Positions 4,385 to 20,370 of a stretch of 39,635 nucleotides of DNA are shown here, one piece after another (the first letter of the stretch is position 1; each line of letters opens with the position of its first letter). The translations under genes were made by a program, and so were the position numbers. This DNA is from an uncultured Thermomicrobium sp. (lineage in GTDB: Bacteria > Chloroflexota > Chloroflexia > Thermomicrobiales > Thermomicrobiaceae), in the NCBI GenBank assembly GCA_938028665.1, contig CALIMB010000086.1, forward strand, positions 1 through 39,635. The letters are read 5' to 3'. The notes beneath the pieces were generated by a model. The model was not told the DNA's origin, did no database searches, and saw only the letters and a program-made list of their open reading frames with translations.

Positions 4385-5743
4385 ATGCGCTGCCCGCACT
4401 GCGGTGATCCGGTACCTGAGGCAGCTCGCTTTTGCCCTTGGTGTGGAGTGCCGCTTGGTAAGGATGTTGGGCCAGTTCGCCGACGTGTCGTTGTCACCGG
4501 TCTTGGGGCCGTGACCCCACTTGGGCTGAGTGCTGAAGAGACGTGGCAGCGGGTGCTGCGTGGTGAGTCGGGAGTACGTCGGATCGAGCGATTCGATCCG
4601 AGTGAACTTCCAGTGCAGATTGCGGCCGAAGTGCGAGGTTTCACGCTTGGTAACTGGGTCGATTCGAAAACTGCGCGTCAAATGGCGATGTTTAGTCAGT
4701 ACGCGCTCGAAGCTGGGGGGCAGGCACTGTGTGACGCGAGACTGGACACAACAAAGATCGATCCAGCACGCGCTGCGGTGGTGATTGGTACCGGGGCTGG
4801 TGGAATGGCGACCATCTTGGAGGCGGAGGAGCTTGCCCAGCGCCGCGGACTCATGCGGATCTCACCCCATTTCATGACCACCTTCCCGCACAACATGCCG
4901 GCTTATCACCTGGCGCAGGCATTTCGCTTCCTTGGGCCAAGCTTGACAGTCTCAACGGCCTGTGCCACCGGTGCGCAGGTGATCGGTGAGGGGGCGGAGA
5001 TGATCCGTTCTGGTGCGGCAGATATTGTGCTGGCCGGCGGAACCGAGTATGCTGTCTTTCCGCTTTTTCTTGCCAGCTTCGCCGTGCAGCGGGCAGCCTC
5101 GACCTGGAATGATCGGCCCGAGGAGGCGAGTCGACCTTTCGATGCGCAGCGGCATGGCTTTGTTGTTGGCGAGGGTGCGGGGATCGTTGTCTTGGAGGCA
5201 CTCGAACATGCACTCGCACGCGGTGCCCGGATCTACGCCGAATTACTCGGGTATGCCTCCAGTAACGACGGTTTCCATCCGATCGCGCCCGATCCTGCGG
5301 GGAGTGGAGCAGCACGGGCGATGCGAGGAGCACTTGTCGATGCGGGGGTGACGCCCGAAGTTGTGGACTACATTAATGCCCATGCTGCTTCAACGCCGCT
5401 GGGCGATCGGGCGGAGACAGTTGCGATTAAGGCAGTCTTTGGGGAGCAGGCTTACCGTATCCCTGTGAGTTCGACAAAGTCGATGATAGGGCATCTGATG
5501 GGTGCTGCCGGTGCCGTTGAGTCGATTATGACAATCCTCAGTATTCGCGACGGCATGGTACATCCGACGCGCAATTATGAATGCCCAGACCTAGAGTGTG
5601 ATCTCGATTACGTGCCCGAGGGAGCACGACGGCATCGCGTGCGCGTCGCGCTCAAGAACTCGTTTGGGTTGGGTGGGCAGAACTGCTGCCTTGTGTTTGC
5701 GGCATGGGAGGGTGAACAGCCTGCCGAACGGAGAGGAGCTTGA
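4385..5743 (+). CDS. fabF: Beta-ketoacyl-ACP synthase II with N-terminal zinc ribbon
   Basis: A 452-residue condensing enzyme of fatty acid elongation. The KAS fold begins near residue 32 (RRVVVTGLGAVTPLG). The Cys-His-His triad is present: Cys193 in STACATGAQ, His333 in NAHAASTPLGD and His370 in MIGHLMGAAG. The C-terminal NSFGLGGQN loop is also present. Unusually, about 30 residues precede the fold and carry CPHC (C3, C6) and CPWC (C17, C20), a complete small zinc ribbon. ATG 4385 is preceded by GGAAGGGGAAGG, so the ribbon is probably translated. A normal-length KAS would need an internal non-ATG start with no clear ribosome site. The gene ends one base before the next start. A role for the ribbon is unknown; a protein-protein contact is a guess. 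Confidence 0.9.
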   Translation: MRCPHCGDPVPEAARFCPWCGVPLGKDVGPVRRRVVVTGLGAVTPLGLSAEETWQRVLRGESGVRRIERFDPSELPVQIAAEVRGFTLGNWVDSKTARQMAMFSQYALEAGGQALCDARLDTTKIDPARAAVVIGTGAGGMATILEAEELAQRRGLMRISPHFMTTFPHNMPAYHLAQAFRFLGPSLTVSTACATGAQVIGEGAEMIRSGAADIVLAGGTEYAVFPLFLASFAVQRAASTWNDRPEEASRPFDAQRHGFVVGEGAGIVVLEALEHALARGARIYAELLGYASSNDGFHPIAPDPAGSGAARAMRGALVDAGVTPEVVDYINAHAASTPLGDRAETVAIKAVFGEQAYRIPVSSTKSMIGHLMGAAGAVESIMTILSIRDGMVHPTRNYECPDLECDLDYVPEGARRHRVRVALKNSFGLGGQNCCLVFAAWEGEQPAERRGA

Positions 5744-5744
5744 A

Positions 5745-6704
5745 ATGCCGAGACGGTACGTGCCAGTGAGTGGGCTTGAGAGTCCACGGTTCGCTGGGAT
5801 TCGCACGTTCGCGCGCCTCCCACACGTTCGTGACCTGGCTGGGGTCGACGTCGCGATCGTTGGAGCACCGTTCGATACTGGGGTGACCTATCGTGTGGGA
5901 GCGCGCTTTGGCCCAGCAGCAGTGCGCGAGATGTCGGCGATGTTGCGCCCGTACCATCCGGCGCTGGATGTTGATGTTTACGAGGTTCTCTCAGTGGTTG
6001 ATTACGGTGACCTTGCAGTGGTGCCGGGATATATTGAGGACAGTTACGAGCGGATTGAGAGCGGCTTAGGGTCACTCTTGGAGCAAGACACGGTCCCCCT
6101 TGTGATTGGTGGAGATCATTCGATCACGCTCGCCGAGCTCCGGGCGGTGGCTCGGCGATATGGTCCGGTAGGATTTGTGCAGTTTGATTCCCATACGGAC
6201 ACGTGGGACGAATACTGGGGGAAGAAGTATACGCACGGGACTCCATTCCGGCGGGCTGTGGAAGAGGGGTTGATTGACACGCGGCGGGCTATCCAAGTCG
6301 GTATGCGTGGCTCACTCTATGGTCCCGAAGACCTTGATCAATCTCGTGCGCTCGGGTTCGAGGTATGGACGACCGACGATATGCGTCGTACCGGCCTTGG
6401 GACGGTCAGTGAAGCGATCCGACGTCGCGTTGCGCAGGGGCCAGTCTTCGTCAGCTTTGACATCGACTTTCTTGATCCGGTCTACGCGCCTGGTACCGGA
6501 ACACCAGAGATTGGGGGATTTACGACGCGGGAAGCACAAGAGCTCCTGCGAGGCCTGGTTGGGGTGGAGATTGTGGCAGCGGATGTTGTGGAAGTCCTAC
6601 CGGCGCACGATGTAAGCGGCATTACGGCACTCGCCGCAGCGAATATTCTATTCGAGCTGCTCGCTGTACTGGCAGTGAACCGGCGCACATCCCGTGTGAA
6701 TTGA
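5745..6704 (+). CDS. speB: Agmatinase-family ureohydrolase (first of tandem pair)
   Basis: A 319-residue binuclear metal hydrolase of the arginase/agmatinase superfamily, which releases urea from a guanidino compound. Metal ligands are visible: GGDHS (His125), FDSHTD (Asp148, His150, Asp152) and SFDIDFLDP (Asp239, Asp241). HGTPFRRAVEEGL and APGTGTPE are as in agmatinases and guanidinobutyrases. The substrate (agmatine, guanidinobutyrate, guanidinopropionate or guanidine) cannot be told from these motifs. Start ATG 5745 lies one base after the fabF stop, with GAGAGGAG six bases upstream, so translation is probably coupled. The next gene is a close paralogue. Confidence 0.88.
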   Translation: MPRRYVPVSGLESPRFAGIRTFARLPHVRDLAGVDVAIVGAPFDTGVTYRVGARFGPAAVREMSAMLRPYHPALDVDVYEVLSVVDYGDLAVVPGYIEDSYERIESGLGSLLEQDTVPLVIGGDHSITLAELRAVARRYGPVGFVQFDSHTDTWDEYWGKKYTHGTPFRRAVEEGLIDTRRAIQVGMRGSLYGPEDLDQSRALGFEVWTTDDMRRTGLGTVSEAIRRRVAQGPVFVSFDIDFLDPVYAPGTGTPEIGGFTTREAQELLRGLVGVEIVAADVVEVLPAHDVSGITALAAANILFELLAVLAVNRRTSRVN

Positions 6705-6754
6705 CGAGAAACCTGTGTAGAGGGCGATCCGTCTGTGGAAGGGGTAGGATCGGC

Positions 6755-7744
6755 GTGGCGCGGATGACCAATTCGGCCGGCGCTCAGGATCCTCATCTGT
6801 GGCAGCCCCGCTTCAGCGGGATCCGGACTTTTGCACGCTTTCCCTATTCGCGACGTCTTGACGGAGTAGACATTGCGATCGTTGGTATTCCGTTCGACAC
6901 CGGTGTCACGTACCGGCCGGGTGCGCGGTTTGGGCCGGCGGCTGTCCGCGAGCACTCGTCGCGTATCGAACAGTATCATCCGGTCCTTGGCTTGGACGTG
7001 TTGGCAGAACTCTCGGTAGTCGATTATGGTGATCTTCCGGTTGTTGCTGGTTATACCGAGCAAAGCTTCCAATTGATCGAAGATGGGCTGCGTGTGCTCA
7101 TTGAGGCGGGAGTCATCCCGATCGGTTTGGGTGGTGACCATTCAATCTCGCTTCCTGAGCTTCGAGCTGTTGCTCAACGGTATGGACCAGTAGCGCTGGT
7201 GCATTTCGACTCGCATGTGGACACCTGGGATACGATTTGGGGAACCAAATATAACCATGGTACGCCGTTTCGCCGGGCAGTCGAAGAAGGATTGGTTGAT
7301 CCCGGCTGCTCAATCCAAATTGGCATCCGTGGGTCCCTCGGGGGACCGGGCGAATTCGAGCAGTCACGCGAGCTAGGCTTCGAGGTCTGGACCGCGCGCG
7401 AAGTGCGGCGAGCCGGACTTGCCGAGGTGCGTGAGGCTATCCATCGCCGAGTGGGGGCGTCTCCGGTCTTCTTGAGCTTTGACATCGACTTCCTCGATCC
7501 CGCCTTTGCGCCGGGAACAGGGACGCCGGAGGTGGGCGGTTTTGCGACTTGGGAAGCACAGGAGCTTCTCTGGGGGCTGGTGGGGCTGGACATTGTGGCG
7601 GCGGATCTGGTTGAGGTCTTGCCCGATCGTGATCCCATGGATGTGACCGCGCTCAATGCGGCGAACCTCGTCTTCGACATGGTAGCGGTCATTGCGGCCA
7701 CGAGGAGGGAGAGACGTTATGGTGCAGTCAATGGCGCCCAGTGA
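6755..7744 (+). CDS. speB: Agmatinase-family ureohydrolase (second of tandem pair)
   Basis: A 329-residue paralogue of the preceding gene with the same ligand set: GGDHS, FDSHVDTWD and SFDIDFLDP, then APGTGTPE. The two proteins align over their full length and were evidently made by tandem duplication, yet differ at many positions. They may have different substrates or form a mixed oligomer. GTG 6755 is chosen because TAGGA lies five bases before it; the in-frame ATG 6764 has too long a spacing. The 3' end overlaps the DUF1989 gene by 26 bases, which suggests translational coupling and a shared pathway. Confidence 0.87.
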   Translation: MARMTNSAGAQDPHLWQPRFSGIRTFARFPYSRRLDGVDIAIVGIPFDTGVTYRPGARFGPAAVREHSSRIEQYHPVLGLDVLAELSVVDYGDLPVVAGYTEQSFQLIEDGLRVLIEAGVIPIGLGGDHSISLPELRAVAQRYGPVALVHFDSHVDTWDTIWGTKYNHGTPFRRAVEEGLVDPGCSIQIGIRGSLGGPGEFEQSRELGFEVWTAREVRRAGLAEVREAIHRRVGASPVFLSFDIDFLDPAFAPGTGTPEVGGFATWEAQELLWGLVGLDIVAADLVEVLPDRDPMDVTALNAANLVFDMVAVIAATRRERRYGAVNGAQ

Positions 7745-8363: not shown

Positions 8364-10064
8364 TCAGGCGATGAAGTAGCGAAAAGTGAGAGGAAGTTCC
8401 TCGGCGGGTGGAATAGAGACAGTCTGACCGTCAATCGTGACTTCCAAGGTCCTCGGATCAACCTCAACACGGGGTGAGGCGGTGTTATAGTACATCGCAT
8501 GCTTAAAAATCCGCCGGGTATTACGGACAGCGACTGCGCGGCGTTGCAGCCCATAGCGAACGAACGCTCCAGTTTCGAGCGTGAGGGGGGCAACAAAGGC
8601 GACAGCCAAAGACGCGGGGGCGCGGCCGAGCCCACCAAACATCGCTCGATAGATCAAGGGCTGGCTCCAGCGGGTAGAACCCATGCCGTCGCCGACCGCC
8701 GCCCAGACCACAAACCCGCCTTTGATAACTGCCGCCGGCTTGGCACCGAAGAAGGCCGGATGCCAGAGGACGATGTCTGCCAGTTTGCCAGGTTCTAAAC
8801 TACCGATCTCGTGATCGAGGCCGTGGGCAATAGCCGGATTGATCGTGTACTTGGCTAGATACTGCAGGATTCGCGGGTTGTCATCGCCTGTATTGGTCAC
8901 GGGATCAAAGCCACCGCCACGCACCTCTTTCATCCGATGCGCAAGCTGCCATGTGCGGCTGATCACTTCGCCAATACGCCCCATGCCCTGCGAATCGGAG
9001 GACATGATCGAAATGGCTCCGAGATCATGCAGGATGTCCTCGGCGGCAATTGTCGTTGCACGGACTCGGTCCTGGGCAGCAGCAACGTCGGTCGGGATGG
9101 TAAGCGAGAGACGGTGCACCGCGACGATCATGTCGAAGAGTTCAGCGATGCTGTTTCGCGAGTAGGGAATCGTTGGACTAGTGGACGAGCCGATAATGTT
9201 TGGCTCAGAAACGATCTCAAGAACGTTTGGTGCGTGTCCACCCCCAGAACCTTCGACGTGGTAGGCGTGGATCGAGCGACCAGCGATCGCCGCGATCGTC
9301 TCACGGAGCGATCCTGCCTCGTTCAGCCCGTCGGTGTGGAGCGCGACCTGGACTCCGGCTTGGTCGGCAACAGTGAGGCAGGCATCGATGACCGCAGGGA
9401 ACGCACCGACATCTTCGTGGATTTTGAACCCGGCGCACCCGGATTCAAGGTGCTCTACCAGTTGTGCCTGGTCGGAGGACCCGCGTCCCAGCACAGCGAG
9501 ATTAAGAGGGATCTCTTCAAAGGCCTCAAAGAGATGCCGGATATTTGTGGCCGGATTGACCCCAAGATCCCACACACCGCCAGAACCCTGGGCAACGAGA
9601 GTCGTGATACCAGCGCTCAGCGCTGCGGGGATGACGCTGGCGGAAGAAAGATGGACGTGCGCATCGATCGCACCAGGAGTGGCGATCAGCCCTTCACCAG
9701 GGATAATCCCGGTGGCATTACTGATGAGGAGCTCCACGTCGTCCATGACGTCCGGATTCCCGGCGCGACCGATTGCGACGATGCGGCCGTCCTTGATGCC
9801 GATGTTGCTCTTCACGATACCGAGCACGGGATCCATCACAATGACGTTGGTGATCACCAGATCAAGCTTGCTCGGTCCGTGATCCCGCCCCGCTAGCATG
9901 CCGTCACGCACCGGTCTCCCAAAGCCGACGAGTGGCTCAAATCCAGGGAGGGTGTCGTCTCGTTCAATGAGGGCAAACAAGTTTGTGTCAGCGAGTCGGA
10001 CTCGGTCACCGGTCGTCGGTCCGTACCAAGAGGCATACTGCCTGCGATCGATGCGGATGGGCAC
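8364..10064 (-). CDS. ureC: Urease alpha subunit, divergent
   Basis: A 566-residue amidohydrolase that aligns with UreC from end to end. Nickel ligands are all present: His136/His138 (HVH), Lys214 (the carbamylated lysine, in GFKIHED), His243, His269 and Asp357 (SSDSQGMG). Catalytic-flap His317 is kept. Departures from canonical ureases: the flap cysteine is replaced (MIVAVHRL instead of MLMVCHHL), the second flap histidine is Arg318, and the loop after TTLVAQG is about five residues shorter and lacks the TNATTCTPG segment. Start GTG 10064 has AAAGGAG upstream, 13 bases behind ureB. Probably acts on urea or a close analogue. Accessory genes ureD/E/F/G are not in the window. Ends six bases from the convergent DUF1989 gene, with no terminator hairpin between them. 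Confidence 0.9.
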   Translation of the reverse strand: MPIRIDRRQYASWYGPTTGDRVRLADTNLFALIERDDTLPGFEPLVGFGRPVRDGMLAGRDHGPSKLDLVITNVIVMDPVLGIVKSNIGIKDGRIVAIGRAGNPDVMDDVELLISNATGIIPGEGLIATPGAIDAHVHLSSASVIPAALSAGITTLVAQGSGGVWDLGVNPATNIRHLFEAFEEIPLNLAVLGRGSSDQAQLVEHLESGCAGFKIHEDVGAFPAVIDACLTVADQAGVQVALHTDGLNEAGSLRETIAAIAGRSIHAYHVEGSGGGHAPNVLEIVSEPNIIGSSTSPTIPYSRNSIAELFDMIVAVHRLSLTIPTDVAAAQDRVRATTIAAEDILHDLGAISIMSSDSQGMGRIGEVISRTWQLAHRMKEVRGGGFDPVTNTGDDNPRILQYLAKYTINPAIAHGLDHEIGSLEPGKLADIVLWHPAFFGAKPAAVIKGGFVVWAAVGDGMGSTRWSQPLIYRAMFGGLGRAPASLAVAFVAPLTLETGAFVRYGLQRRAVAVRNTRRIFKHAMYYNTASPRVEVDPRTLEVTIDGQTVSIPPAEELPLTFRYFIA

Positions 10065-10077
10065 ACTCCGACTCCTT

Positions 10078-10467
10078 TCATTCGTCGGGCTGGTGACAAA
10101 AGCCGCGGGCCAGAAGTTTCTCCAGTAAGGCGTTGAGATCAACCCTCGCAAGCGGTCCATCAACCAGACCGTGGAACCCGCGGACAGTACGCTGCCCCCT
10201 AATGGGGACAAGCGGGACTGTAACGGTCTGGCCTGGCTCGATCCGGATGGCCCAGCCCACAGGGAGATCAGGGCGCATACCAAACGCCTTCCGGCGGTCA
10301 AAGCAAAGGTCGGGATTCGCCTCGAAAACATGGAAGTGGGCAGTGAGATGGACAGGGACGGCGCCGCGGTTGGTGATCTGGATGAGGGTGACCGGTAAAC
10401 CGGCGTTGATTTCGATCTCCCCTTCACCGGGAATGATCCCACCAGGCGGAACGGTGATCTCGCTCAT
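10078..10467 (-). CDS. ureB: Urease beta subunit
   Basis: A 129-residue structural subunit of urease. It shows the family pattern: an IIPGEGEIEINAG opening, a central HFHVFEANPDLCFDRRKAFGMR segment (usually HYHF.E.NP.L.FDR..A.G.R), then IEPGQTVTVPLV and RGFHGLVDGPL. It has no catalytic residues of its own but supports the alpha active site. Its start overlaps the ureA stop by four bases (ATGA), which implies coupled translation and equal subunit supply. Somewhat longer than the usual 100-110 residues, mainly at the C-terminus. Confidence 0.92.
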   Translation of the reverse strand: MSEITVPPGGIIPGEGEIEINAGLPVTLIQITNRGAVPVHLTAHFHVFEANPDLCFDRRKAFGMRPDLPVGWAIRIEPGQTVTVPLVPIRGQRTVRGFHGLVDGPLARVDLNALLEKLLARGFCHQPDE

Positions 10468-10766
10468 CGGATCGGATTCCTCACAGTCACCAGGCGTGTA
10501 CCGTCTGGGAAGAGTGCATCGATATAGAGGACACTCAGCATTTCGGGGACGCCCGGTAGGACGTCATCGCGGGTGAGAAGCGAGCAGGCTTGAGCGACGA
10601 CGTCTTCGTAAGGGCGTCCGGCACGGGCCTCTTCGTAGACCTCATCACAGATAATCGCAGCGGCTTCCGCGTAGTTGAGCTTGATACCGCGGGCACGGCG
10701 CCGCCGAGCGAGCTCGGCGAGTGTAAAGACGGTGAGACGATCCAGTTCCTTTGGCGTGAGATACAT
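10464..10766 (-). CDS. ureA: Urease gamma subunit
   Basis: A 100-residue urease small subunit: MYLTPKELDRLTVFTLAELARRR, then KLNYAEAAAIICDEVYEEAR and PGVPEMLSVLYIDALFPDGT, all close to the family consensus. Length is standard. Its ATG overlaps the stop of the preceding unknown gene (TAATG arrangement), and its stop overlaps the ureB start. The three subunit genes are thus separate, as in most bacteria, in the order gamma, beta, alpha. Confidence 0.94.
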   Translation of the reverse strand: MYLTPKELDRLTVFTLAELARRRRARGIKLNYAEAAAIICDEVYEEARAGRPYEDVVAQACSLLTRDDVLPGVPEMLSVLYIDALFPDGTRLVTVRNPIR

Positions 10767-11110
10767 TACTGCCTCCGCATGGGTCGGGGTGTAGAGTCGG
10801 CCGCTTCCCTGCCACCTGGCGAAAGAGTACCGGTGGTATCCAAGACAAGTTCGAGGCGCGTCCGGTAGGGGATACGATAGTGACGGAGCAGATTGGCGAC
10901 ATTCACACTCCGGTAACCTGATGGGAACTTCGGATCGGGGTGGGGAGAGAGAGCCAGTCGAACCGGCAGATATCGTCCAAGCCGCCCAGCGCGAATTGCT
11001 TGAGCCAGGAGATCGAGATCGGAGTGGCCGGTGATATCCTCGATCCAGAGATCGGGCGGTCCAGAAAAGGGGTTGCGGTCTAACCAGATGTAGAGCCTCT
11101 GCTCAGCCAT
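10766..11110 (-). CDS. Hypothetical protein in urease operon
   Basis: A 114-residue protein that I do not recognise. It starts MAEQRLYIWLDRNPFSGPP and contains a stretch reading LLAQAIRAGRLGRYLPVRLALSPHPDPKFPSG, then NVANLLRHYRIPYRTRLELVLD. There is no signal peptide or membrane span, and no cysteine or histidine cluster like those of nickel chaperones. ATG 11110 has GGGGAAG about eight bases upstream; the longer in-frame extension to 11323 runs across the neighbouring gene. It sits between the HTH gene and ureA, with stop and start overlapping, so it is made with the urease. Possible roles are a maturation or regulatory partner, both guesses. Confidence 0.72.
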   Translation of the reverse strand: MAEQRLYIWLDRNPFSGPPDLWIEDITGHSDLDLLAQAIRAGRLGRYLPVRLALSPHPDPKFPSGYRSVNVANLLRHYRIPYRTRLELVLDTTGTLSPGGREAADSTPRPMRRQ

Positions 11111-11153
11111 GAGGCGCTTCCCCGCAGAACGAACGCATGCCCTGGGTAACTGC

Positions 11154-11402
11154 TCAGGACGTGAATGGAATCCAGGTCTCGGCTGCCGGCAAGCACAGAC
11201 TGTCCCGCGCGTCGGATGCTGGCTGCAGGCGAAGCAGTGCTTCGAGGTCAGAGCGGCGATAGAGACGTTCACGGCGGATACCGCGGCGATAGCTACGAAG
11301 GCGGCCGCGACTTGCATAGGCATAGAGTGTTTCGCGCTTCACACCGAGTAGTGCTGCTGCTTCTGCTGCGGTTAAATACTCGACACCATCAATTTCAATC
11401 AT
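11154..11402 (-). CDS. Small excisionase/MerR-type helix-turn-helix protein
   Basis: An 82-residue DNA-binding protein. The pattern EYLTAAEAAALLGVKRETLYAYASRGRLRSYRRG followed by RLYRRSDLEALL is the winged-helix fold of the excisionase/HTH_17 group. Such proteins recognise short operators or phage attachment sites. Here no integrase is nearby, so a local regulator is more likely. It is the first gene of the urease operon: the promoter lies just upstream (11435-11463), and the next gene begins 43 bases downstream. Autoregulation of the operon is plausible but inferred. GGGAG lies before ATG 11402. Confidence 0.8.
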   Translation of the reverse strand: MIEIDGVEYLTAAEAAALLGVKRETLYAYASRGRLRSYRRGIRRERLYRRSDLEALLRLQPASDARDSLCLPAAETWIPFTS

Positions 11403-13021: not shown

Positions 13022-13381
13022 GTGCGACAGGCGACGGGCACTGCCAACCGTCGGCAGAAACGCTCGTTCTTTCTCGTCGTGAGTGAACAAACGTGGCTGT
13101 TGCCGGTGGCGACGGTTGCGTTTGTTCTTTTTGTTGGCGGACCGAGTATTGCTGTCCTGTTCTTTTCGGTCACACCATGGCTGATTGTTCCCTTCTTGCT
13201 CCCATCCTTCCTTGCAACGTGGCTTGGACTGATTGTTGCGCTTGCCGATCTTTTGCAACGCCCAGCGCACCAGTTTCCTGGTGGGCGGACGTTCTGGCTG
13301 ATCCTGATCACACTTTTCAACGTCATCGCATTCTTGCCGTATTGGCTCTTCGTGGCACGGCGGCCGAGACGGACGAGCTAA
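13022..13381 (+). CDS. Small membrane protein, PLDc_N-like
   Basis: About 119 residues with a hydrophobic N-terminal half (two spans) and a final span reading FWLILITLFNVIAFLPYWLFVARRP. The sequence LADLLQRP...GGRTFWLILI...LPYWLF recalls the PLDc_N domain (a short two-span module at the head of cardiolipin synthases or alone). No phospholipase catalytic motif is present. GTG 13022 lies two bases after rpsU, but a GTG at codon 20 is also possible, so the N-terminus is uncertain. The stop codon overlaps the stop of the convergent gene. Confidence 0.65.
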   Translation: MRQATGTANRRQKRSFFLVVSEQTWLLPVATVAFVLFVGGPSIAVLFFSVTPWLIVPFLLPSFLATWLGLIVALADLLQRPAHQFPGGRTFWLILITLFNVIAFLPYWLFVARRPRRTS

Positions 13382-13833
13382 TGGGAGTTCTCGGGCGATT
13401 CGAATGGGCGCAGTCCATGCTGAATTTCCTCAGCAAGCTTCTGAACCTCTGCAGCCGGCGCCAGCGTATTGACGGCGGTCTGGAGCTCTTCAAAAAGACG
13501 ATCCACATGTTCACGCTGCTCCGCGGTCATCGCCTCCCGGATGGTCTCCCACTGCGCCCGGGCCCGTTGGACTGCTGACTGGGCTGCAGCATACTCCTCC
13601 TGCTCCAGCACCTGTCCGTCGCGGACGACTTGCTCTGTGTAGAGGGACAGCTGTAAGACGTCGAGCTCCGCCTGGATCCGCTCAACTGTACCCGAAACCG
13701 CCGGTTGACCAGTATCGCTCTGGTGCGACAATCCCCAGATGATCGCTGCGAGGGCAAGAGCGAGAATGCTGAGCGCGATCGCGACGATACGGTGCCACCA
13801 CGGTCTCCGGCTGTGTGGACGAACGATTGCCAT
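13378..13833 (-). CDS. Membrane-anchored helical protein of the iron-uptake operon
   Basis: A 151-residue protein with a basic N-terminus, one membrane span (about residues 14-36) and an extracytoplasmic helical domain. That domain contains VVRDGQVLEQEEYAAAQ (about 69-85), which resembles GVENGKIVNIEEYQDSW in the lipoprotein at the head of the same operon. In FTR1-type systems, segments of the form G-K-V-x-N-x-x-E-Y-x-E occur in extracytoplasmic domains, from memory of the family. ATG 13833 has GAGG six bases upstream; the upstream gene stops nine bases before it. It is the last gene of the operon. Function by context: part of iron uptake at the cell surface. Confidence 0.7.
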   Translation of the reverse strand: MAIVRPHSRRPWWHRIVAIALSILALALAAIIWGLSHQSDTGQPAVSGTVERIQAELDVLQLSLYTEQVVRDGQVLEQEEYAAAQSAVQRARAQWETIREAMTAEQREHVDRLFEELQTAVNTLAPAAEVQKLAEEIQHGLRPFESPENSH

Positions 13834-13841
13834 GAGTTTCC

Positions 13842-15896
13842 TCACACGCGAGCTGGTTGACCGATCAGTAAGCAGCCGAGCTCCTCAGTTGCGATAGGTG
13901 CCTGAACGGGGAGTGAACGATCGAAGAGGAGATAGCGTGAGCCGATGATCGCACAGGCACACTGCCCGGTTAGGGCCGACAGCGAGAGCTCAGCAGGCGC
14001 TCGCAGCGCGTGACACCAGCCATCAGCGGCACGGAAGCAGATCGCACCAGTACTGTCGATAACGGCGAGTGGCCGACGCTCACGCCGGAAGGGACCGATT
14101 CTCCGGCGCACAGTCGCAGTGAACACACGGTAGAATTCATTTTCGAATTGAAGTTCGAGACACTGTGACGGAACGCCAAGGGCCTGTGCCGCCAGTTGCA
14201 GTGCTTCTGCGCGACTGATCCGTATCTTGGTTGAGCTACCCGAAGGTTCCTCAAGTGCTGTGGCGCGAATGCGCGCTGCATGCCTTTCTGGAATTGGCTC
14301 GACAACAACTTGGACGCTGCGTGGATCTGCACCAAGAGCGACGAGCTGATGCTCGAGACGCTGGATAGTGGCCTGGAGCTCGGCTCCGGAATACAGGTGT
14401 ACCTCTTCGATCACGCTCAGCGGGGTTGTTGTCGCGCCAATCGCGGCCATCACTTCAGCATGGTGTGCGATCGCGAGCGGAAGGCGGAGCCGTTTGGCCA
14501 GTGCTGGTGCAAGCACGCCAGCGCCGCCCCCGAGGCCAATCAGGTGGGGTTGCTGTAACTCGTAGTCCTGCATCAGTTCTCGTGCCAGTGGGACGAGCGC
14601 ATCAACCGCCCGCGCCAAGACTTCCTGCGCTGTCTCGTCAACCGTGCGCCCGAGCAGATCGGCGAGCGGTTGGAACGCAGCGCGAGCGCGCTCACGATCA
14701 CCAAAAGCGTAGTCGTGCGGTGCGAGCAATCCCAGGGCATTCGCTGCATCTGTCAGTGTTAAGGCGGCAGTTCGACCGTTCTGGTCGCGAACCACAACAT
14801 AATCGGGAGTGTCGCCCGGCAGCGGTGCGATGAAGGCGAGCGCAAAAGGCGGCTTGAGGTCGCTGGTAAAACTGACATAGGGCAGGCCAGCGATATGGGC
14901 GCTGCGGGGGCCGAGGCCGATGATTTGGCGGTGTGCGACGCGGATGAGTGAGCCGCCGCCCAGCCCGGCGACATGGACGTCGACTGAGCGCAGGCAGGTT
15001 GGATGCTGCATGATACGCACGTAGCGCAGGACGGGGCGGCCGTCGCGAATAACGCCAAGGTTCGTGCTTGTACCTCCGACCTCGACAAAGAGTGCATCGA
15101 CGGTCGGATGTTCTCGTAATGCACCTGCGACACTGGCTGCTGGACCAGACAGCATGCTTGTCGCTGGAAGCTCAGCGAGTTGATCGATTGACGCCACGCT
15201 CAGATCACCCGTCAGGATCATGGCCGGAGCGAGAATGCCAGCTTCTTGCAGTGCCGCACGTACCCACTGAGTTGTCTTGCGCATGCATGGCAGGATGCTC
15301 GCGTTGATCGCTGCCGTCACCGTGCGAACTTCCAAGCCGTAGAGACCGGTCAGTTGATGGCCCGCTGTGGCGGGAAGACCGAGATCACCGGCTATGGCAA
15401 GCGCGAGGCGTTCCGGTTCTGGATCCTCGACGGCATAAGCAGCCGAAATGGCAACGGCACGGGCCCCAGATCGGCTGAGAGACTCGAGGGCAGCTCGTAC
15501 CCTCTCAGGGGTTACTGCTTCACGATCCAGGTAGGTGTAATGGAGGGTGAGTGTGCGCCCGGGAGCAAGTTTGATCTGATCTAGTCGCGTCCGCTGTTGA
15601 GTTTGCCGCCGCTCCGCACGTGGGCCGATGGCGAGGATCCCAACCGGTACAACATCGCCTTCGAGCAGCGCATTGACTGCTTGCGTCGTGCTGAAGGTGA
15701 CCACGCGGATTTCTTCTGGTGGGATACCAGTTTGGCGAATCAGCGCCTCTAAGGCTTGCACCGCCCCGGCTGCAACACCGTGTTGGGCAGCATGCGTGGT
15801 CGGAACGGCGACGTGAGCGCATAGGTCGCCCGTTTCCTGGTGCAGCGCCACTGCCTTGGTGAACGTCCCGCCGACATCGATGCCGATGCGAATCAC
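13842..15896 (-). CDS. Hydantoinase/oxoprolinase family protein (HyuA-like)
   Basis: A 684-residue protein with an N-terminal ATP-binding fold GIDVGGTFTKAVAL (residues 4-17) and a second sugar-kinase-like element VEVGGTSTNLGVI in the middle. GLGGGSLI and GLGGGAGVLAPALA follow, as in the HyuA/methylhydantoinase/5-oxoprolinase A family. The last 180 residues are less familiar. HyuA enzymes usually work with a HyuB partner, and none is here. GTG 15896 overlaps the FTR1 stop (GTGA) with GAGAGGGGG upstream, so it is translationally coupled to the iron permease. Why an ATP-dependent amide-opening enzyme is built into an iron-uptake operon is unclear. Confidence 0.82.
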   Translation of the reverse strand: MIRIGIDVGGTFTKAVALHQETGDLCAHVAVPTTHAAQHGVAAGAVQALEALIRQTGIPPEEIRVVTFSTTQAVNALLEGDVVPVGILAIGPRAERRQTQQRTRLDQIKLAPGRTLTLHYTYLDREAVTPERVRAALESLSRSGARAVAISAAYAVEDPEPERLALAIAGDLGLPATAGHQLTGLYGLEVRTVTAAINASILPCMRKTTQWVRAALQEAGILAPAMILTGDLSVASIDQLAELPATSMLSGPAASVAGALREHPTVDALFVEVGGTSTNLGVIRDGRPVLRYVRIMQHPTCLRSVDVHVAGLGGGSLIRVAHRQIIGLGPRSAHIAGLPYVSFTSDLKPPFALAFIAPLPGDTPDYVVVRDQNGRTAALTLTDAANALGLLAPHDYAFGDRERARAAFQPLADLLGRTVDETAQEVLARAVDALVPLARELMQDYELQQPHLIGLGGGAGVLAPALAKRLRLPLAIAHHAEVMAAIGATTTPLSVIEEVHLYSGAELQATIQRLEHQLVALGADPRSVQVVVEPIPERHAARIRATALEEPSGSSTKIRISRAEALQLAAQALGVPSQCLELQFENEFYRVFTATVRRRIGPFRRERRPLAVIDSTGAICFRAADGWCHALRAPAELSLSALTGQCACAIIGSRYLLFDRSLPVQAPIATEELGCLLIGQPARV

Positions 15897-17164
15897 GCGA
15901 TCCCCCTCTCTCGATCAGTCGCACCCAGTGCACGTCTCGCTGGTGCTGATCGGTACCAGGACCAGCCGGCCCAGCCCCACGCGGCAAGATAGGCAGTAGC
16001 AAGCGTTGCCTGAGCCAGGAAAACCTCTCGGGTTGGATGGAGACCTAAAACATCGAGGAGACTACGATTGAGATTGGGGAGTTGGATGACTGAGATCGGG
16101 AGGTAGCCGATCATTTGAAGTTCCCACACAGCGTGGCCCAAGATTGCGAGGGACAAGACCATAATGATGAGAATGGCGATCGAGAGGAAGGCACGGAGGG
16201 GGAGCCGCCTTCCGAGACCAAGGACCGCCCATCCGAGTGCCATCAGAAGGAGCGCAGCGATCAGAAGACCGAGGAAAACCCAGAACTCCAGTCGTCGAGC
16301 CATCAGGACGAGTGACTGGTACAACACCGCTGTCTCTACGCCCTCACGGTAGACAGCCGTAAAGCCAAGAAGCGCGATCGCTGATGCCTTGCCAGTTGCA
16401 ACGGCCTCCCACGCGTGTCCTCGCAGGTATTCCATCCAGCGACGAGTGTCGATCCGACGCAGTAGCCAGAGGCTGATCGAGATCATCAGCGCCACTGCCA
16501 GGAGCGACATTCCAATCTCCAAGAGTTCTCGACCGATCGGAACTACCCGCAGGACAACAACCAGGGCCAGCCAGGTGAAGAGACTGGCAGGGATTGCGAG
16601 AGTGGCTCCGATCCAGAGGGGACGACGAAGACGCGGTTGATGAGTGCCTACAAAGCCGAGTAAAGCTGCGATCACGAGAATCGCTTCGATCCCTTCGCGA
16701 AGGAGGATCGAAAAAGAGGCAAGCCCGACGAAGAGTGGTGCAGCAAGGCCAGGACCTCCAACGAGCCGCTCGACTTCGACAAGCCCGTTCTCGATCTCCA
16801 GAAGAAGCCGTTCGATTTCGGAAGATGGTGCGCCACGTTCAATGAGCTGCCGCCATTGAGCGAACTTGACTTCCATTGCAAACGTAAAGTTGGGATCAGC
16901 GACTCGGAGTGGAACTTCAACAAGTTCAAAGTGGTCAAGATACGCTTGCCGTGCCAGACGGAGAGCACGTTCGCGGTCTCCTGACTGGTACGCACTCTGA
17001 CTGTCCCGCATTAACTGGCGAATCGCGGCCAATTCCTGCGAGATGGTCACACCCGAAGAAGGGGATTCGGCAAGAGTGCGTGGTGCGGCGAGGGTGATCG
17101 AGGCGGCGAGCAAGGCGATGAACCATCCAAGCCTGAATAAGTAGCGTGAGGGTGCGACGGTCAC
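15893..17164 (-). CDS. FTR1-family iron permease with extracytoplasmic N-terminal domain
   Basis: A 423-residue permease for high-affinity iron uptake. A signal-like hydrophobic stretch (residues 10-26) leads into an extracytoplasmic helical domain (about 40-140) and then seven or so membrane spans. Two RExxE iron motifs are present: REGIE (156-160) and REGVE (273-277), both at the start of hydrophobic spans as the family requires. The N-terminal domain (QSAYQSGDRERALRLARQAYLDHFE) is homologous by eye to the C-terminal domain of the lipoprotein upstream. GTG 17164 overlaps the lipoprotein stop and has GAGGAGG nearby. Oxidised or reduced iron as substrate cannot be told. Confidence 0.9.
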   Translation of the reverse strand: MTVAPSRYLFRLGWFIALLAASITLAAPRTLAESPSSGVTISQELAAIRQLMRDSQSAYQSGDRERALRLARQAYLDHFELVEVPLRVADPNFTFAMEVKFAQWRQLIERGAPSSEIERLLLEIENGLVEVERLVGGPGLAAPLFVGLASFSILLREGIEAILVIAALLGFVGTHQPRLRRPLWIGATLAIPASLFTWLALVVVLRVVPIGRELLEIGMSLLAVALMISISLWLLRRIDTRRWMEYLRGHAWEAVATGKASAIALLGFTAVYREGVETAVLYQSLVLMARRLEFWVFLGLLIAALLLMALGWAVLGLGRRLPLRAFLSIAILIIMVLSLAILGHAVWELQMIGYLPISVIQLPNLNRSLLDVLGLHPTREVFLAQATLATAYLAAWGWAGWSWYRSAPARRALGATDRERGIA

Positions 17165-18288
17165 CGGAGCACCTCCTCAACCTCCTCGAGTGCGCTTTCC
17201 ACCTGGCGAATCAGCCGCTCCACTTCTCCCACCGGGCGCTCTGCTCGGATCGCGTCGCGGATTGCCTTGAAGTCCTTTTCGAGTTGTTCGACAAGTTGGC
17301 GATGACCGCGCTCCAGCAGAGACGGTTCGAGTGGCTCGAATCCCTCGAGGTAAGCGTTGGCCGCCTCTTCGTAGGCTTGGTTCGTATTGCCAGCACGGTA
17401 AGCCTGCAACGCAGCCGCGAGCTGGGCACGAATCTTGGCAAGCTGCTCTTCGGTTGACGATGTGGTTGGCGAGCTGATAGCGAAAGTGCTGCGTAGTTCA
17501 CTTGCACAATGGAGTAATCGCTCGCGCGCCGTGTTCGCCTCAGCAACTGTCGTTCCTGGAGCATCGTAGAACGACATGAAGGTTGTCTGAGCGAGTGCGT
17601 CCAAATCCTCCTGGATTCTAGTTAGAGTACTGCGTACATCTGGAGGTGCGGTCGCGGAAACGAGTGGAAATTCACGACGCAAAATATGAAAGAATCCCCA
17701 GGAATCCTGATACTCCTCGATATTGACGATCTTTCCGTTCTCAACACCCTCAAGAAACTCGCTGGCCGCAGACTCTGCCAGGAGCGCCAGCGCTGCAGCA
17801 CGGGTTACGTTTGGATCCGAAGAGCCATCGATAATAGCGCGGATCACATCTTGGAGCGCTTGACGTGCTGTCTCGTTGCGTGCTGCAGCGTCGTGAGCCT
17901 GCTGTTTGGTTGCTTCTAGGTAGTCATCCAGCGCTCTGCGGATGCTGGCGAGGTCAGAAGCGTTAAGGCGGCCTTGAACGCTTGCCCAGTATTCAGCAGC
18001 TGGATGCGCAGCATGTGCTTGGGCGAGTGTCCAGTTGCCGCGCTCGAGGTTGGCTCGGCTGGCCTCCAAGTGCCCCAACATCTCGTAAAGTATAGCGACA
18101 AACTCGCTTTCGTCCTCGCCCCCAGGAGCTCGATGACTGGTGTGAGGCGAGTCTGTGGTCGTGGTTGCTGCTGTGCTCACTGGTTGGGTTGCCGGCCGCG
18201 TCTCGACCGATGCTGAACACGCTGCGAGTACAAGCGTCAAGGCACTGTAAACAATCATCGACCGAATGGGGATCCGACCCATACCCAT
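17161..18288 (-). CDS. Lipoprotein of FTR1 iron-uptake operon
   Basis: A 375-residue predicted lipoprotein. A basic N-terminus and hydrophobic segment end in the lipobox LVLAAC (Cys24), followed by a Thr/Ser/Pro-rich linker. The first helical domain includes GVENGKIVNIEEYQDSW (about 179-195). The last domain (about 280-375; QAYRAGNTNQAYEEAANAYLEGFEPLE) matches the N-terminal domain of the FTR1 permease that follows. It probably binds or hands over iron outside the membrane, much as EfeO does for EfeU, though I see no EfeO-like motif. ATG 18288 has AAAGGG eight bases before; ATG 18282 is an alternative. First gene of the operon. Confidence 0.8.
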   Translation of the reverse strand: MGMGRIPIRSMIVYSALTLVLAACSASVETRPATQPVSTAATTTTDSPHTSHRAPGGEDESEFVAILYEMLGHLEASRANLERGNWTLAQAHAAHPAAEYWASVQGRLNASDLASIRRALDDYLEATKQQAHDAAARNETARQALQDVIRAIIDGSSDPNVTRAAALALLAESAASEFLEGVENGKIVNIEEYQDSWGFFHILRREFPLVSATAPPDVRSTLTRIQEDLDALAQTTFMSFYDAPGTTVAEANTARERLLHCASELRSTFAISSPTTSSTEEQLAKIRAQLAAALQAYRAGNTNQAYEEAANAYLEGFEPLEPSLLERGHRQLVEQLEKDFKAIRDAIRAERPVGEVERLIRQVESALEEVEEVLR

Positions 18289-18380
18289 CCTGTCGTCCCT
18301 TTCGTGGAACGCTTCCTCTCTGCTCTGCACTCCCCGATCCGGTCGCCGGCGACCAAATCCGAGTAATTTGCTCGGGATTC

Positions 18381-18409
18381 ATTCTAGAGGGCGATCAAGC
18401 ATGTGTCAA
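18381..18409 (-). promoter_or_regulatory. Sigma-70-type promoter of the iron-uptake operon
   Basis: On the minus strand, a perfect -35 TTGACA (18404-18409) and -10 TAGAAT (18381-18386, five of six) are 17 bases apart. Transcription would start near 18374, giving an 86-base leader before the lipoprotein gene. No Fur-box-like palindrome was noticed over it. Confidence 0.75.
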
Positions 18410-18865: not shown

Positions 18866-19531
18866 TCAGACCGGCCAGGACTCCATGCGCCAGGCGGCGT
18901 CCCAGAACATCCATTCGTACCGCGACGTAGTGACAAAATGGGCGCGGACAGCTGCGCGCCGTTCCCCGCGGAGATCCGTCACCGCGTCCTCGGTGACGTT
19001 GATCACTGCCTGAACGACCGCGGCGTACTCCGCAGATGCATAGGTAGCAATCCAGCGCTGGTAGAGTGGGTTGGGGGAGCCTGCTTTCTCAAGGTGTTTT
19101 CCTACTTCCCAGTAGATCCAGTAGCATGGCAGGACCGCTCCGAGGAGCTCCTCAAAGGGGCGATCATAGGCAATGCGAAGGAGATACGAGGTGTAGGCTA
19201 AGTTGGTGGGCGCATACGGGGTTGCAGCAATCTCTTCTGGTGAGAGTTCCCATTCGCGGAAGAAACTTTCATGAAGCGAGCGCTCCACGACGAGTGCGAT
19301 TTTGGCATGATCTGCGAAGAGTTCACACCAAGGATCACGCGGTGACTTCGCTGCTGCCAGAGCCAGGCAACGGGCGTAGTCTCGGAGGTAAAGGGCATCT
19401 TGCACGACATAGTACCGGAACGCATCTTCCGGGAGCGAGCCATCTGTCAGGCCGCGCAGGAAAGGATGAGCGAGGATTGCTGCGAAGATATCGGTGATCG
19501 AGCTCCAGAGTTCGTCTGTGAAGCGGGACAT
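18866..19531 (-). CDS. tenA: TenA family aminopyrimidine aminohydrolase/thiaminase II (TenA_C type)
   Basis: A 221-residue helical enzyme of thiamine salvage; TenA proteins hydrolyse aminopyrimidine fragments of degraded thiamine to HMP. The active-site cysteine is present (Cys136 in VLPCYWIYWEVG), with YVVQDALYLRDYAR (Asp45, Tyr48) and the C-terminal SRYEWMFWDAAW, as in the classical B. subtilis-type group. ATG 19531 has AGAAGGAG upstream, 18 bases after the paralogue's stop. Second gene of a TPP-riboswitch-controlled operon. Confidence 0.92.
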   Translation of the reverse strand: MSRFTDELWSSITDIFAAILAHPFLRGLTDGSLPEDAFRYYVVQDALYLRDYARCLALAAAKSPRDPWCELFADHAKIALVVERSLHESFFREWELSPEEIAATPYAPTNLAYTSYLLRIAYDRPFEELLGAVLPCYWIYWEVGKHLEKAGSPNPLYQRWIATYASAEYAAVVQAVINVTEDAVTDLRGERRAAVRAHFVTTSRYEWMFWDAAWRMESWPV

Positions 19532-19549: not shown

Positions 19550-20197
19550 TCAGATTGGCCATGTCATACCGGTATAGACCATGTCCCAGAACAGGTACTC
19601 GTAGCGTGCTGTAGCGAGGAAAACCCGGCGAATCGCTGGATACTCGCCGGTGCTCGAGCAACGCACGAGCTGTGTCCCGAGCCACTCAACCCAGGCGGCG
19701 AACTGCGGGCTTGTCCAGTTCTCAATCCAGCGAGCATAGGGTCCAGCCAAGCCGACCACTTGCCGAACGGTTGACCAGGCGTCGTAGTACGCCTTTTCAG
19801 CGCCCCAGAGGGCTGCAAGTGCCTCGCCAAGTGACCCGGTTGCTGCAGTAGCGAGAAGAAAGCTCGCGTAACCGAGGCAAACTGGAGTGGGCTCGACCTG
19901 TAGCTCGAGTCTTTGTTGGTGGGCATAATCCTCGAAGATGCTGAGTTCGTTGCGGAAGGCGACAGCTGCGTCCAGGAGGCCGTAGCGGAGTTCGTCGTCC
20001 GGGGCACGGGCGATGAGGAGCGCGAGGAAACGCAGACCGTCTTGGACGAATCGGTAGTCTTGCTGTACCCAAAAGTCGAAGCGCTCACGCGGAAGGCGAC
20101 CGGTGGCGAGTTCGTGGAGAAACGGATGCGCCGTCATGGCCTCCCAGATGGGGCGCGCCTCGCTCAGGAGCTCGTCGAGAAGTGGGGTGGACATCAT
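19550..20197 (-). CDS. TenA family protein lacking the catalytic cysteine (TenA_E type)
   Basis: A 215-residue TenA homologue with FWVQQDYRFVQDGLRFLALL and the C-terminal TARYEYLFWDMVY. At the catalytic position it reads ALWGAEKAYYDAW: alanine replaces the cysteine and Glu134 follows, the mark of the TenA_E group. TenA_E proteins act on other base-degraded thiamine products, and their chemistry differs from TenA_C. Start ATG 20197 or ATG 20194; GGAGG lies four or seven bases upstream. Directly downstream of the TPP riboswitch and followed by the cysteine-bearing paralogue, so the pair may do successive salvage steps. Confidence 0.88.
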   Translation of the reverse strand: MMSTPLLDELLSEARPIWEAMTAHPFLHELATGRLPRERFDFWVQQDYRFVQDGLRFLALLIARAPDDELRYGLLDAAVAFRNELSIFEDYAHQQRLELQVEPTPVCLGYASFLLATAATGSLGEALAALWGAEKAYYDAWSTVRQVVGLAGPYARWIENWTSPQFAAWVEWLGTQLVRCSSTGEYPAIRRVFLATARYEYLFWDMVYTGMTWPI

Positions 20198-20257
20198 CGC
20201 ACCTCCGGGTAACGCAGCTGGAATGAGCTGGCGATTCTGTACGGGGATACCTTGCCG

Positions 20258-20370
20258 ATGTCTGGCCTCCCTTCGCTGGTATTACCCAGATCAGGTCGTG
20301 ACCGGTCGGCGGCGGGATCCTGGGCCGCCCTCTCAGCCTGGTTCACCCAAGCTCCCGGGGCATGTCAGCG
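20258..20370 (-). promoter_or_regulatory. TPP (THI-element) riboswitch
   Basis: Reading the minus strand, the THI core is clear. A P2-like hairpin CTTGG-GTGAA-CCAGG leads into CTGAGAG. Next is a P3 stem GGCGGC/GCCGCC, then ACCTGATCTGGGTAATACCA, GCGAAGGGAGG. These match the conserved CUGAGA and ACCUGAUCUGG..AAUxCCAGCGxAGGGA boxes. The pairing of P1 and the exact ends are approximate. It lies about 60 bases before the first tenA gene. No T-run terminator follows, so control of translation (hiding GGAGG) is more likely than attenuation. Confidence 0.93.

Follow-up and report, generated by a model that had tools for sequence, protein, structure and literature searches.

To our knowledge, iron permeases of the FTR1/EfeU type work without a dedicated ATPase and import bare iron, not chelates, and we know of no FTR1 that is driven by ATP. 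ArsA is a cytoplasmic ATPase subunit that is added to the secondary permease ArsB. In the system described here, FTR1-type iron uptake is joined by a further component, an ATP-binding protein of the HyuA family. It resembles the EfeUO and FTR1 systems in that the FTR1 permease carries two REGxE motifs and has a helical partner outside the cytoplasm; unlike them, its permease scores below the EfeU cut-offs, its lipoprotein resembles EfeO and EfeM weakly, and it has in addition the ATP-binding HyuA and a small membrane protein, with no EfeB noticed in the operon. The HyuA protein shares with HyuA, OplA and CapA the Hydant_A_N and Hydantoinase_A domains, the ASKHA fold, the first phosphate aspartate (D7) and the GGT motifs, and differs from them in the absence of HyuB and of the Hydant_A_C domain, in the residues K14, E272 and N279, and in the link to a metal permease. 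Its best structural matches, AcxB, ApcA and ApcA' (Z 27.8 and 24.7), have a kinase-type ASKHA module and act with a metal-binding partner subunit, for which no gene was found here. According to the available text of PMC8453981 and PMC5214803, ApcA' also lacks an aspartate at the position of N279, where it has K281. The likeness to ArsA and ArsB lies in the notion that a cytoplasmic ATPase serves a permease that is otherwise independent; the ATPase fold is unrelated, FTR1 is unrelated to ArsB, and the likeness is one of function only.

We analyzed a stretch of 39,635 nucleotides (the window) from a thermophilic bacterium, an uncultured Thermomicrobium sp. The genome comprises 2.78 Mb in 110 contigs, and its closest named relatives in our genome scan were Bacterium HR28 and Thermomicrobium. 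Four genes follow one promoter on the minus strand, in the order helical lipoprotein (17161-18330, 389 aa), FTR1/EfeU-type iron permease (15893-17164, 423 aa), HyuA-family (PF05378 and PF01968) ASKHA-type ATP-binding protein (13842-15896, 684 aa, GTG start) and small membrane protein (13378-13833, 151 aa). The last of these ends the operon, is predicted to be single-pass and has a helical domain outside the cytoplasm. The lipoprotein gene overlaps the FTR1 start by 4 nt, and the TGA of FTR1 overlaps the GTG of HyuA by 4 nt (GTGA), as the initial annotation had read it in placing the HyuA start within the FTR1 stop codon. The gap of 8 nt from the HyuA stop to the ATG of the small membrane protein gene (at 13833) likewise fits its statement that HyuA ends nine bases before the last membrane-protein gene; an alternative GTG at 13845 for the latter would overlap HyuA. 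The observation is thereby confirmed; the lipoprotein gene is not among the genes that the initial annotation named.

The FTR1 protein, which has an N-terminal helical extracytoplasmic domain, matched the Pfam family FTR1 (PF03239) with 55.2 bits against a cut-off of 25.3 and scored below the EfeU equivalog cut-offs (NF041756, 76.9 of 255 bits; TIGR00145, 73.4 of 303.8 bits). Its two REGxE motifs are at residues 156-160 and 273-277, and R156, E157, E160, R273, E274 and E277 were invariant in 12 of 12 sequences. No Pfam family was matched by the lipoprotein, whose cysteine 38 is invariant (11/11). In Foldseek searches it showed a weak likeness in fold to the M75 (imelysin-like) proteins EfeM (7q1g, E 0.022, probability 0.99) and EfeO (7wgu, E 0.083), with no match at E 0.001 or below. 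It contains a helical domain like the N-terminus of FTR1: among the relatives, the FTR1 profile matched lipoproteins and the lipoprotein profile matched FTR1 proteins, and a profile of the small membrane protein matched the lipoprotein weakly. These cross-matches suggest that the extracytoplasmic parts share one helical domain.

Searches of 158 genomes of the same class recovered 11 full HyuA copies besides that of the window (46-86% identity), together with a fragment at a contig end in genome G120, which has FTR1 on another contig. The next best matches had about 35% identity over half the protein; the subfamily is thus sharply set off. The four genes and their order are the same in ten of the 11 neighborhoods, a conservation far beyond chance; in the remaining one (G116) the last three are present and the contig ends before the first. 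This bears out the description of HyuA as a fixed member of the operon. The surroundings of the operon differ between genera. Furthermore, the FTR1 profile scored above 550 bits in exactly the 13 HyuA genomes of the 158; the next score was 270 bits, and none of the 56 genomes with only a lower-scoring FTR1 has a HyuA of this subfamily. A HyuA match was present in 13 genomes of a wider sample of 400 Chloroflexota, four of them outside the class. Two of these, G711 and G511, have all four genes of the operon, and in G511 174 nt separate HyuA from the gene before it; the HyuA of the other two (G505 and G687) is of the type linked to a GntP/DcuC-like permease.

A scan of species genomes with a 12-row alignment of HyuA found 187 relatives, of which the best 80 were analyzed. 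Among these 80, FTR1 is directly upstream of HyuA in 35 loci, with a gap of -20 to +31 nt as measured from the start codon nearest the first motif. The 35 consist of eight re-findings from the class, two loci from other Chloroflexota (L058 and L078) and 25 of Nitrosopumilus type; thus, this HyuA subfamily does sit beside FTR1 in other genomes, a check that the initial annotation had suggested, and it does so in both bacteria and archaea. No match to the lipoprotein or the small protein was found beside the pair in L078. The constant core is FTR1 and HyuA, and the other two genes are not universal.

The pair was then followed in 250 genomes of Nitrososphaeria, in which related genomes are not independent of each other. 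The HyuA profile matched 76 of them at E 1e-30, including one ordinary partial match (G190, 130 bits), and the FTR1 profile matched 91 at E 1e-10. The genomes with a strong FTR1 (E below 1e-100) were exactly the 75 with HyuA; the remaining 16 had weak FTR1 matches and no HyuA of the FTR1-linked kind. Neither this sample nor that of the 158 class genomes contains a strong FTR1 without this HyuA or the reverse case, and the two form a module that spans two domains of life. A chance neighbor is rejected by the conservation of the operon and by this co-occurrence. The two genes are adjacent in 42 of the 75 archaeal genomes and not adjacent in 33. Twelve of the 33 have them on the same contig and strand (one pair 261 nt apart), and in the other 21 the contig or the strand differs, which may partly reflect breaks in draft assemblies. 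Three of the twelve pairs are 275 kb to 1.06 Mb apart on one contig, and thus the genes stay together without linkage. Where they adjoin, joint loss may be one deletion. We sought EF-2 in 80 of the 250 genomes (40 with the pair, 40 without) and used 78, G192 and G248 having no full EF-2. On the resulting tree, the joint trait changes seven times, five of them on starred branches, and always together. A sign test gave p 0.06, where five independent pairs cannot reach significance and the test pits the trait against itself, since both genes share one distribution.

Among the same best 80 of 187, FTR1 and HyuA overlap by 8-20 nt in 24 of the 25 Nitrosopumilus-type loci, and in the 24 loci of the Nitrososphaera-type branch FTR1 is not directly upstream (one is about 5 kb away). 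Some archaeal loci have a lipoprotein-type gene, either upstream or downstream, while none was seen in the rest, and the profile of the small membrane protein found no separate gene for it in the archaeal loci. The lipoprotein-type partners differ greatly in length; one ends in a PEFG-CTERM sorting signal (L076:3552-4673) and another has a long tandem duplication (L073:9199-12135). Several Nitrosopumilus-type loci (L069, L076, L090, L096, L101, L083 and L098) have cbtB-cbtA, which probably encode a cobalt transporter, and a pair of small winged-helix genes upstream of FTR1 or of the lipoprotein-like gene. Uptake of cobalt was rejected for the Chloroflexota, whose promoter points to iron; cbtA-type genes are in 11 of 81 clustered loci, all archaeal, and the archaeal systems may take up cobalt. 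According to the available text of PMC6776035, Ca. Nitrosopelagicus brevis has iron-specific importers and Nitrosopumilus maritimus SCM1 lacks them, and a later survey, in its available text (PMC9723733), marks genomes with FTR1 alone, without ferroxidase; the available parts of both papers do not mention the HyuA gene.

The absence of HyuB, stated in the initial annotation, extends far beyond the operon. A one-sequence phmmer search that recovered its positive control found no HyuB in any of 91 neighborhoods of the subfamily, eight of which are repeat genomes and some of which are cut by contig ends. With a profile, HyuB was missing from 18 of 33 HyuA-carrying genomes searched, namely all 15 thaumarchaeal genomes, G095, G097 and G174, and was found elsewhere, at least once, in the other 15, including 10 Thermomicrobium-like genomes; it matched six of 14 control genomes. 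The window's genome has a single HyuB match, on another contig, and it adjoins an ordinary HyuA. Three HyuA-family genes are present in this genome, one with HyuB, one with an S-Me-THD-type gene and one with FTR1. The second of these (514 aa; L045:6956-9630, contig C16 of G000) is directly followed by the S-Me-THD-like gene, which represents another type of HyuA partner. These results support the view that the FTR1-linked HyuA is independent of HyuB. The initial annotation had considered that relatives might carry the gene apart from FTR1 and beside HyuB. The second part was found nowhere in the neighborhoods, and the first occurs in the 33 Nitrososphaeria genomes with FTR1 elsewhere and in the sister clade described below.

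Hydant_A_N and Hydantoinase_A matched HyuA above their Pfam cut-offs (78.3 and 160 bits), and each of 39 subfamily members matched both domains with E no higher than 0.01. Hydant_A_C (PF19278) matched none of the 39 at E 0.01; it scored 48.9 bits in the HyuB-linked paralog of the same genome, and the short S-Me-THD-linked paralog is also without it. Equivalog scores in NCBIfam were far below those required (caprolactamase alpha, 86.6 of 1000 bits; acetophenone carboxylase alpha, 38.1 of 1250 bits). Alignment with caprolactamase showed that K14, E272 and N279 replace D18, D295 and D302 of CapA. These three residues were invariant in 88 of 88 subfamily members, K14 having been part of the seed pattern of the genome scan and E272 and N279 not, and four of four ordinary HyuAs have aspartates there. 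D7, which corresponds to D11 of CapA, is kept in all 88. The roles of D11, D18, D295 and D302 are taken from PMC8453981, whose available text reports that D11 is needed for activity and that the D11A and D295A variants retain only traces. The hydantoinase-type enzyme of the initial annotation, if taken in the ordinary sense, is not supported, given the replacement of three active-site aspartates and the missing C-terminal domain. As judged from the residues, the loss of these aspartates could mean that the ATPase activity is weak or absent. In four genomes of Nitrososphaeria (G369, G397, G330 and G345), the HyuA open frames are 871-913 aa long with two-piece or shortened matches, and may carry an insertion.

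An AlphaFold2 model of HyuA from 39 sequences (mean pLDDT 83.9) matched 5svc_B with Z 27.8 over 502 residues, 5l9w_b with Z 24.7 and 6yra_A with Z 20.5, in a comparison that hardly covers residues 551-684. The Z scores to HyuA and carboxylase structures ranged from 18.9 to 27.8, and identity to 6yra_A and 9h03_A was 23% over about 500 aligned residues. As far as the model indicates, the ASKHA fold of the carboxylase and hydantoinase alpha subunits is kept. Weaker matches were FtsA (Z 15.5), a diol dehydratase reactivase (Z 14.8) and EutJ (13.4).

The promoter of the operon has a -35 box TTGACA (18404-18409, minus strand), which is conserved in relatives, and, 17 nt from it, a -10 box TAGAAT (18381-18386, minus strand). 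Just downstream of the -10 box is a palindromic operator-like site of the CCGASTRWWWYASTCGG family (18359-18376, minus strand), with one mismatch in the window. The palindrome is present in nine of 10 operon upstream regions compared (the window and eight relatives); it is absent from L042 and L043, and the L039 sequence ends too early. It occurs nine times at two or fewer mismatches, and 13 times at three or fewer, in the 197 kb around the operons, compared with 0-1 times after shuffling for the former. At one mismatch or fewer, the only site in the window's genome is that at the operon promoter. Five genomes contain four further such sites and no match to a reversed control pattern. One of the four, in G123, precedes an FbpA gene, whose product matches ferric-iron-binding structures (7w3w, E 5e-87) and has one NCBIfam match, to a 2-aminoethylphosphonate binding protein, far below the cut-off; no gene that we recognized as an iron gene adjoins the other three. 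Of 12 genomes, all but G125 and G097 encode an FbpA-type homolog, whose gene shares a contig with the operon and is close to it in G116, G117 and G118. Nine of the 10 have a similar promoter and palindrome (1-3 mismatches) upstream of the gene, and only the most distant homolog (G095, 30% identity) is without them. Because the palindrome is common to the operon and the gene of an FbpA-type ferric-iron ABC transporter, it supports a role in iron. An iron context, and not amino-acid catabolism, is therefore what the operon with FTR1 and this shared palindrome point to, in agreement with the initial annotation, and the HyuA gene very probably does belong to an iron-uptake module.

Fur, IdeR, DtxR and MntR boxes were sought by their consensus strings in a loose scan of the promoter regions, which gave only two scattered Mnt-like matches, and control of this kind was rejected. 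Rrf2 proteins with three cysteines are encoded in five of six loci read, with L252 left out, and we infer that an Rrf2 protein is the candidate regulator acting at the palindrome. The palindrome core in G115 is the IscR type-1 consensus as quoted in PMC6599224, from which the window's copy departs in both arms.

Beside the FTR1-linked clade, 21 loci among the best 80 of 187 form a sister clade of the same HyuA subfamily in our tree; five of its eight outgroup rows were in a wrong frame, and the tree was used unrooted and only for the split between clades. In these Proteobacteria and Rokubacteria, HyuA is directly behind a permease in 18 of the 21 loci (one of the other three starts too close for a judgment), and the permease has a weak likeness to GntP/DcuC. 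These permeases and ArsB are both assigned to the ion-transporter superfamily. No strong FTR1 was found in the genomes of the 21 loci (at most 266 bits). L218 and L220 from Chloroflexota, which are outside the HyuA tree, have the same permease-HyuA layout. Of the 21 loci, 18 have a gene for a PhyH-type dioxygenase and 17 encode a protein of another cluster, which has an HExxH motif in the sequences read; an alcohol dehydrogenase is also among the catabolic-looking genes nearby. A second conserved cluster (L218, L220, L056, L059, L113 and others) thus consists of the GntP/DcuC-like permease, HyuA and the HExxH protein, which belongs to no Pfam family. Genes read from their translations as RraA-like, KDPG-aldolase-like and sugar-kinase-like are near the cluster in G687 and beside that of L220. 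Such sugar-acid-type genes near the G687 cluster would also allow a metabolic kinase.

We tentatively propose, as the likeliest explanation, that HyuA is a HyuB-independent cytoplasmic ATP-binding partner that energizes or gates FTR1. Outside the cell, the helical lipoprotein would bind iron, as would the helical domains of FTR1 and of the small membrane protein, and the iron would cross FTR1 via the REGxE sites; HyuA would dock on FTR1 from the cytoplasm, and its ATP cycle would drive or gate the release of iron into the cell. HyuA may thus serve FTR1 as ArsA serves ArsB, in function and not by kinship. The proposal is drawn from the strict co-occurrence, the operon linkage, the independence from HyuB, the ASKHA fold, the kept D7 and the palindrome shared with FbpA, as well as from the sister clade, in which HyuA is also directly behind a permease. 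Against it we count the three replaced aspartates with their possible cost to ATPase activity, the lack of a known ATP-driven FTR1, the 33 of 75 archaeal pairs that are non-adjacent, the few independent changes in co-occurrence, the lipoprotein and small protein that are not universal, the single site before FbpA among four further palindrome sites, and the catabolic-looking genes of the sister clade, which suit a small-molecule kinase. The initial annotation had offered either the processing of an iron chelator or a modification of the transport system; a role on the permease fits the data somewhat better.

It is rather unlikely, if well worth weighing, that HyuA instead works alone as an ATP-dependent kinase or hydrolase on an organic iron ligand, such as a carboxylate or a lactam-type chelator, which would free the iron or recycle the ligand after uptake, close to the chelator idea of the initial annotation. 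The invariant active-site positions suggest chemistry, and the sister clade keeps company with GntP/DcuC-like organic-acid permeases and catabolic-looking genes. However, the operon has no second cytoplasmic enzyme that could take over an activated intermediate, we noticed no siderophore gene among the listed open reading frames of the window, K14, E272 and N279 do not match the catalytic set, and FTR1, as we understand it, imports bare iron and not chelates. The chemistry of HyuA-family proteins is the phosphorylation of carbonyl or carboxylate oxygens, according to the available text of PMC8453981 and PMC5214803, and in this respect the family suits a ligand kinase. It is distinctly unlikely that HyuA acts in assembly, repair or regulation, like ASKHA proteins in the style of FtsA, PilM, EutJ or the reactivases, and helps FTR1 to insert, cluster or switch off at high cellular iron. 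The matches to FtsA, diol dehydratase reactivase and EutJ speak for it, and the altered phosphate motifs would suit slow hydrolysis; however, the Z scores of the FtsA type fall below those to HyuA and carboxylase structures, and such factors would rarely be tied so strictly to one permease subfamily. That HyuA is an ordinary hydantoinase or oxoprolinase alpha subunit, in the operon by chance and served by a remote HyuB, is highly improbable despite its clear Pfam membership and the one HyuB encoded elsewhere in the genome, as that HyuB adjoins its own HyuA, the C-terminal domain and three aspartates are missing in the subfamily, and the HyuB-free genomes and neighborhoods largely refute it.

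Returning to HyuA as a partner of the permease, its position behind permeases of unrelated families in both clades suggests a general permease partnership. A wider reading, which we regard as unlikely, is that the K14/E272/N279 subfamily represents a new class of permease-associated ASKHA ATPase. One clade would energize or gate FTR1 in Chloroflexota and ammonia-oxidizing-type archaea, and in Proteobacteria, Rokubacteria and some Chloroflexota the sister clade would do so for the GntP/DcuC-like permeases; if so, two unrelated kinds of secondary transporter would become ATP-dependent. For FTR1 itself, the pairing of the permease with HyuA in the absence of HyuB means that these importers may depend on an undescribed ATP-handling part, and a strictly co-occurring ATP-binding partner would change the view of how iron importers are powered or controlled. 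Such a role would also suggest a function for archaeal proteins that Pfam places with the hydantoinases. The FTR1-HyuA pairing is stated in no paper among the matches listed in our literature search, whose coverage excludes most subscription journals.

Two further units in the window were observed. Directly upstream of the iron operon is a thiamine-salvage unit, consisting of a TPP riboswitch (20251-20368, minus strand) followed by two TenA-family genes (19550-20197 and 18866-19531, both minus strand). This riboswitch, upstream of the tenA genes, is the only Rfam match in the window at gathering score, and riboswitch control of the iron operon was rejected. Two agmatinase-like genes in tandem, named from their translations, are beside a urease operon (5598-7744, plus strand, and 8364-11323, minus strand).
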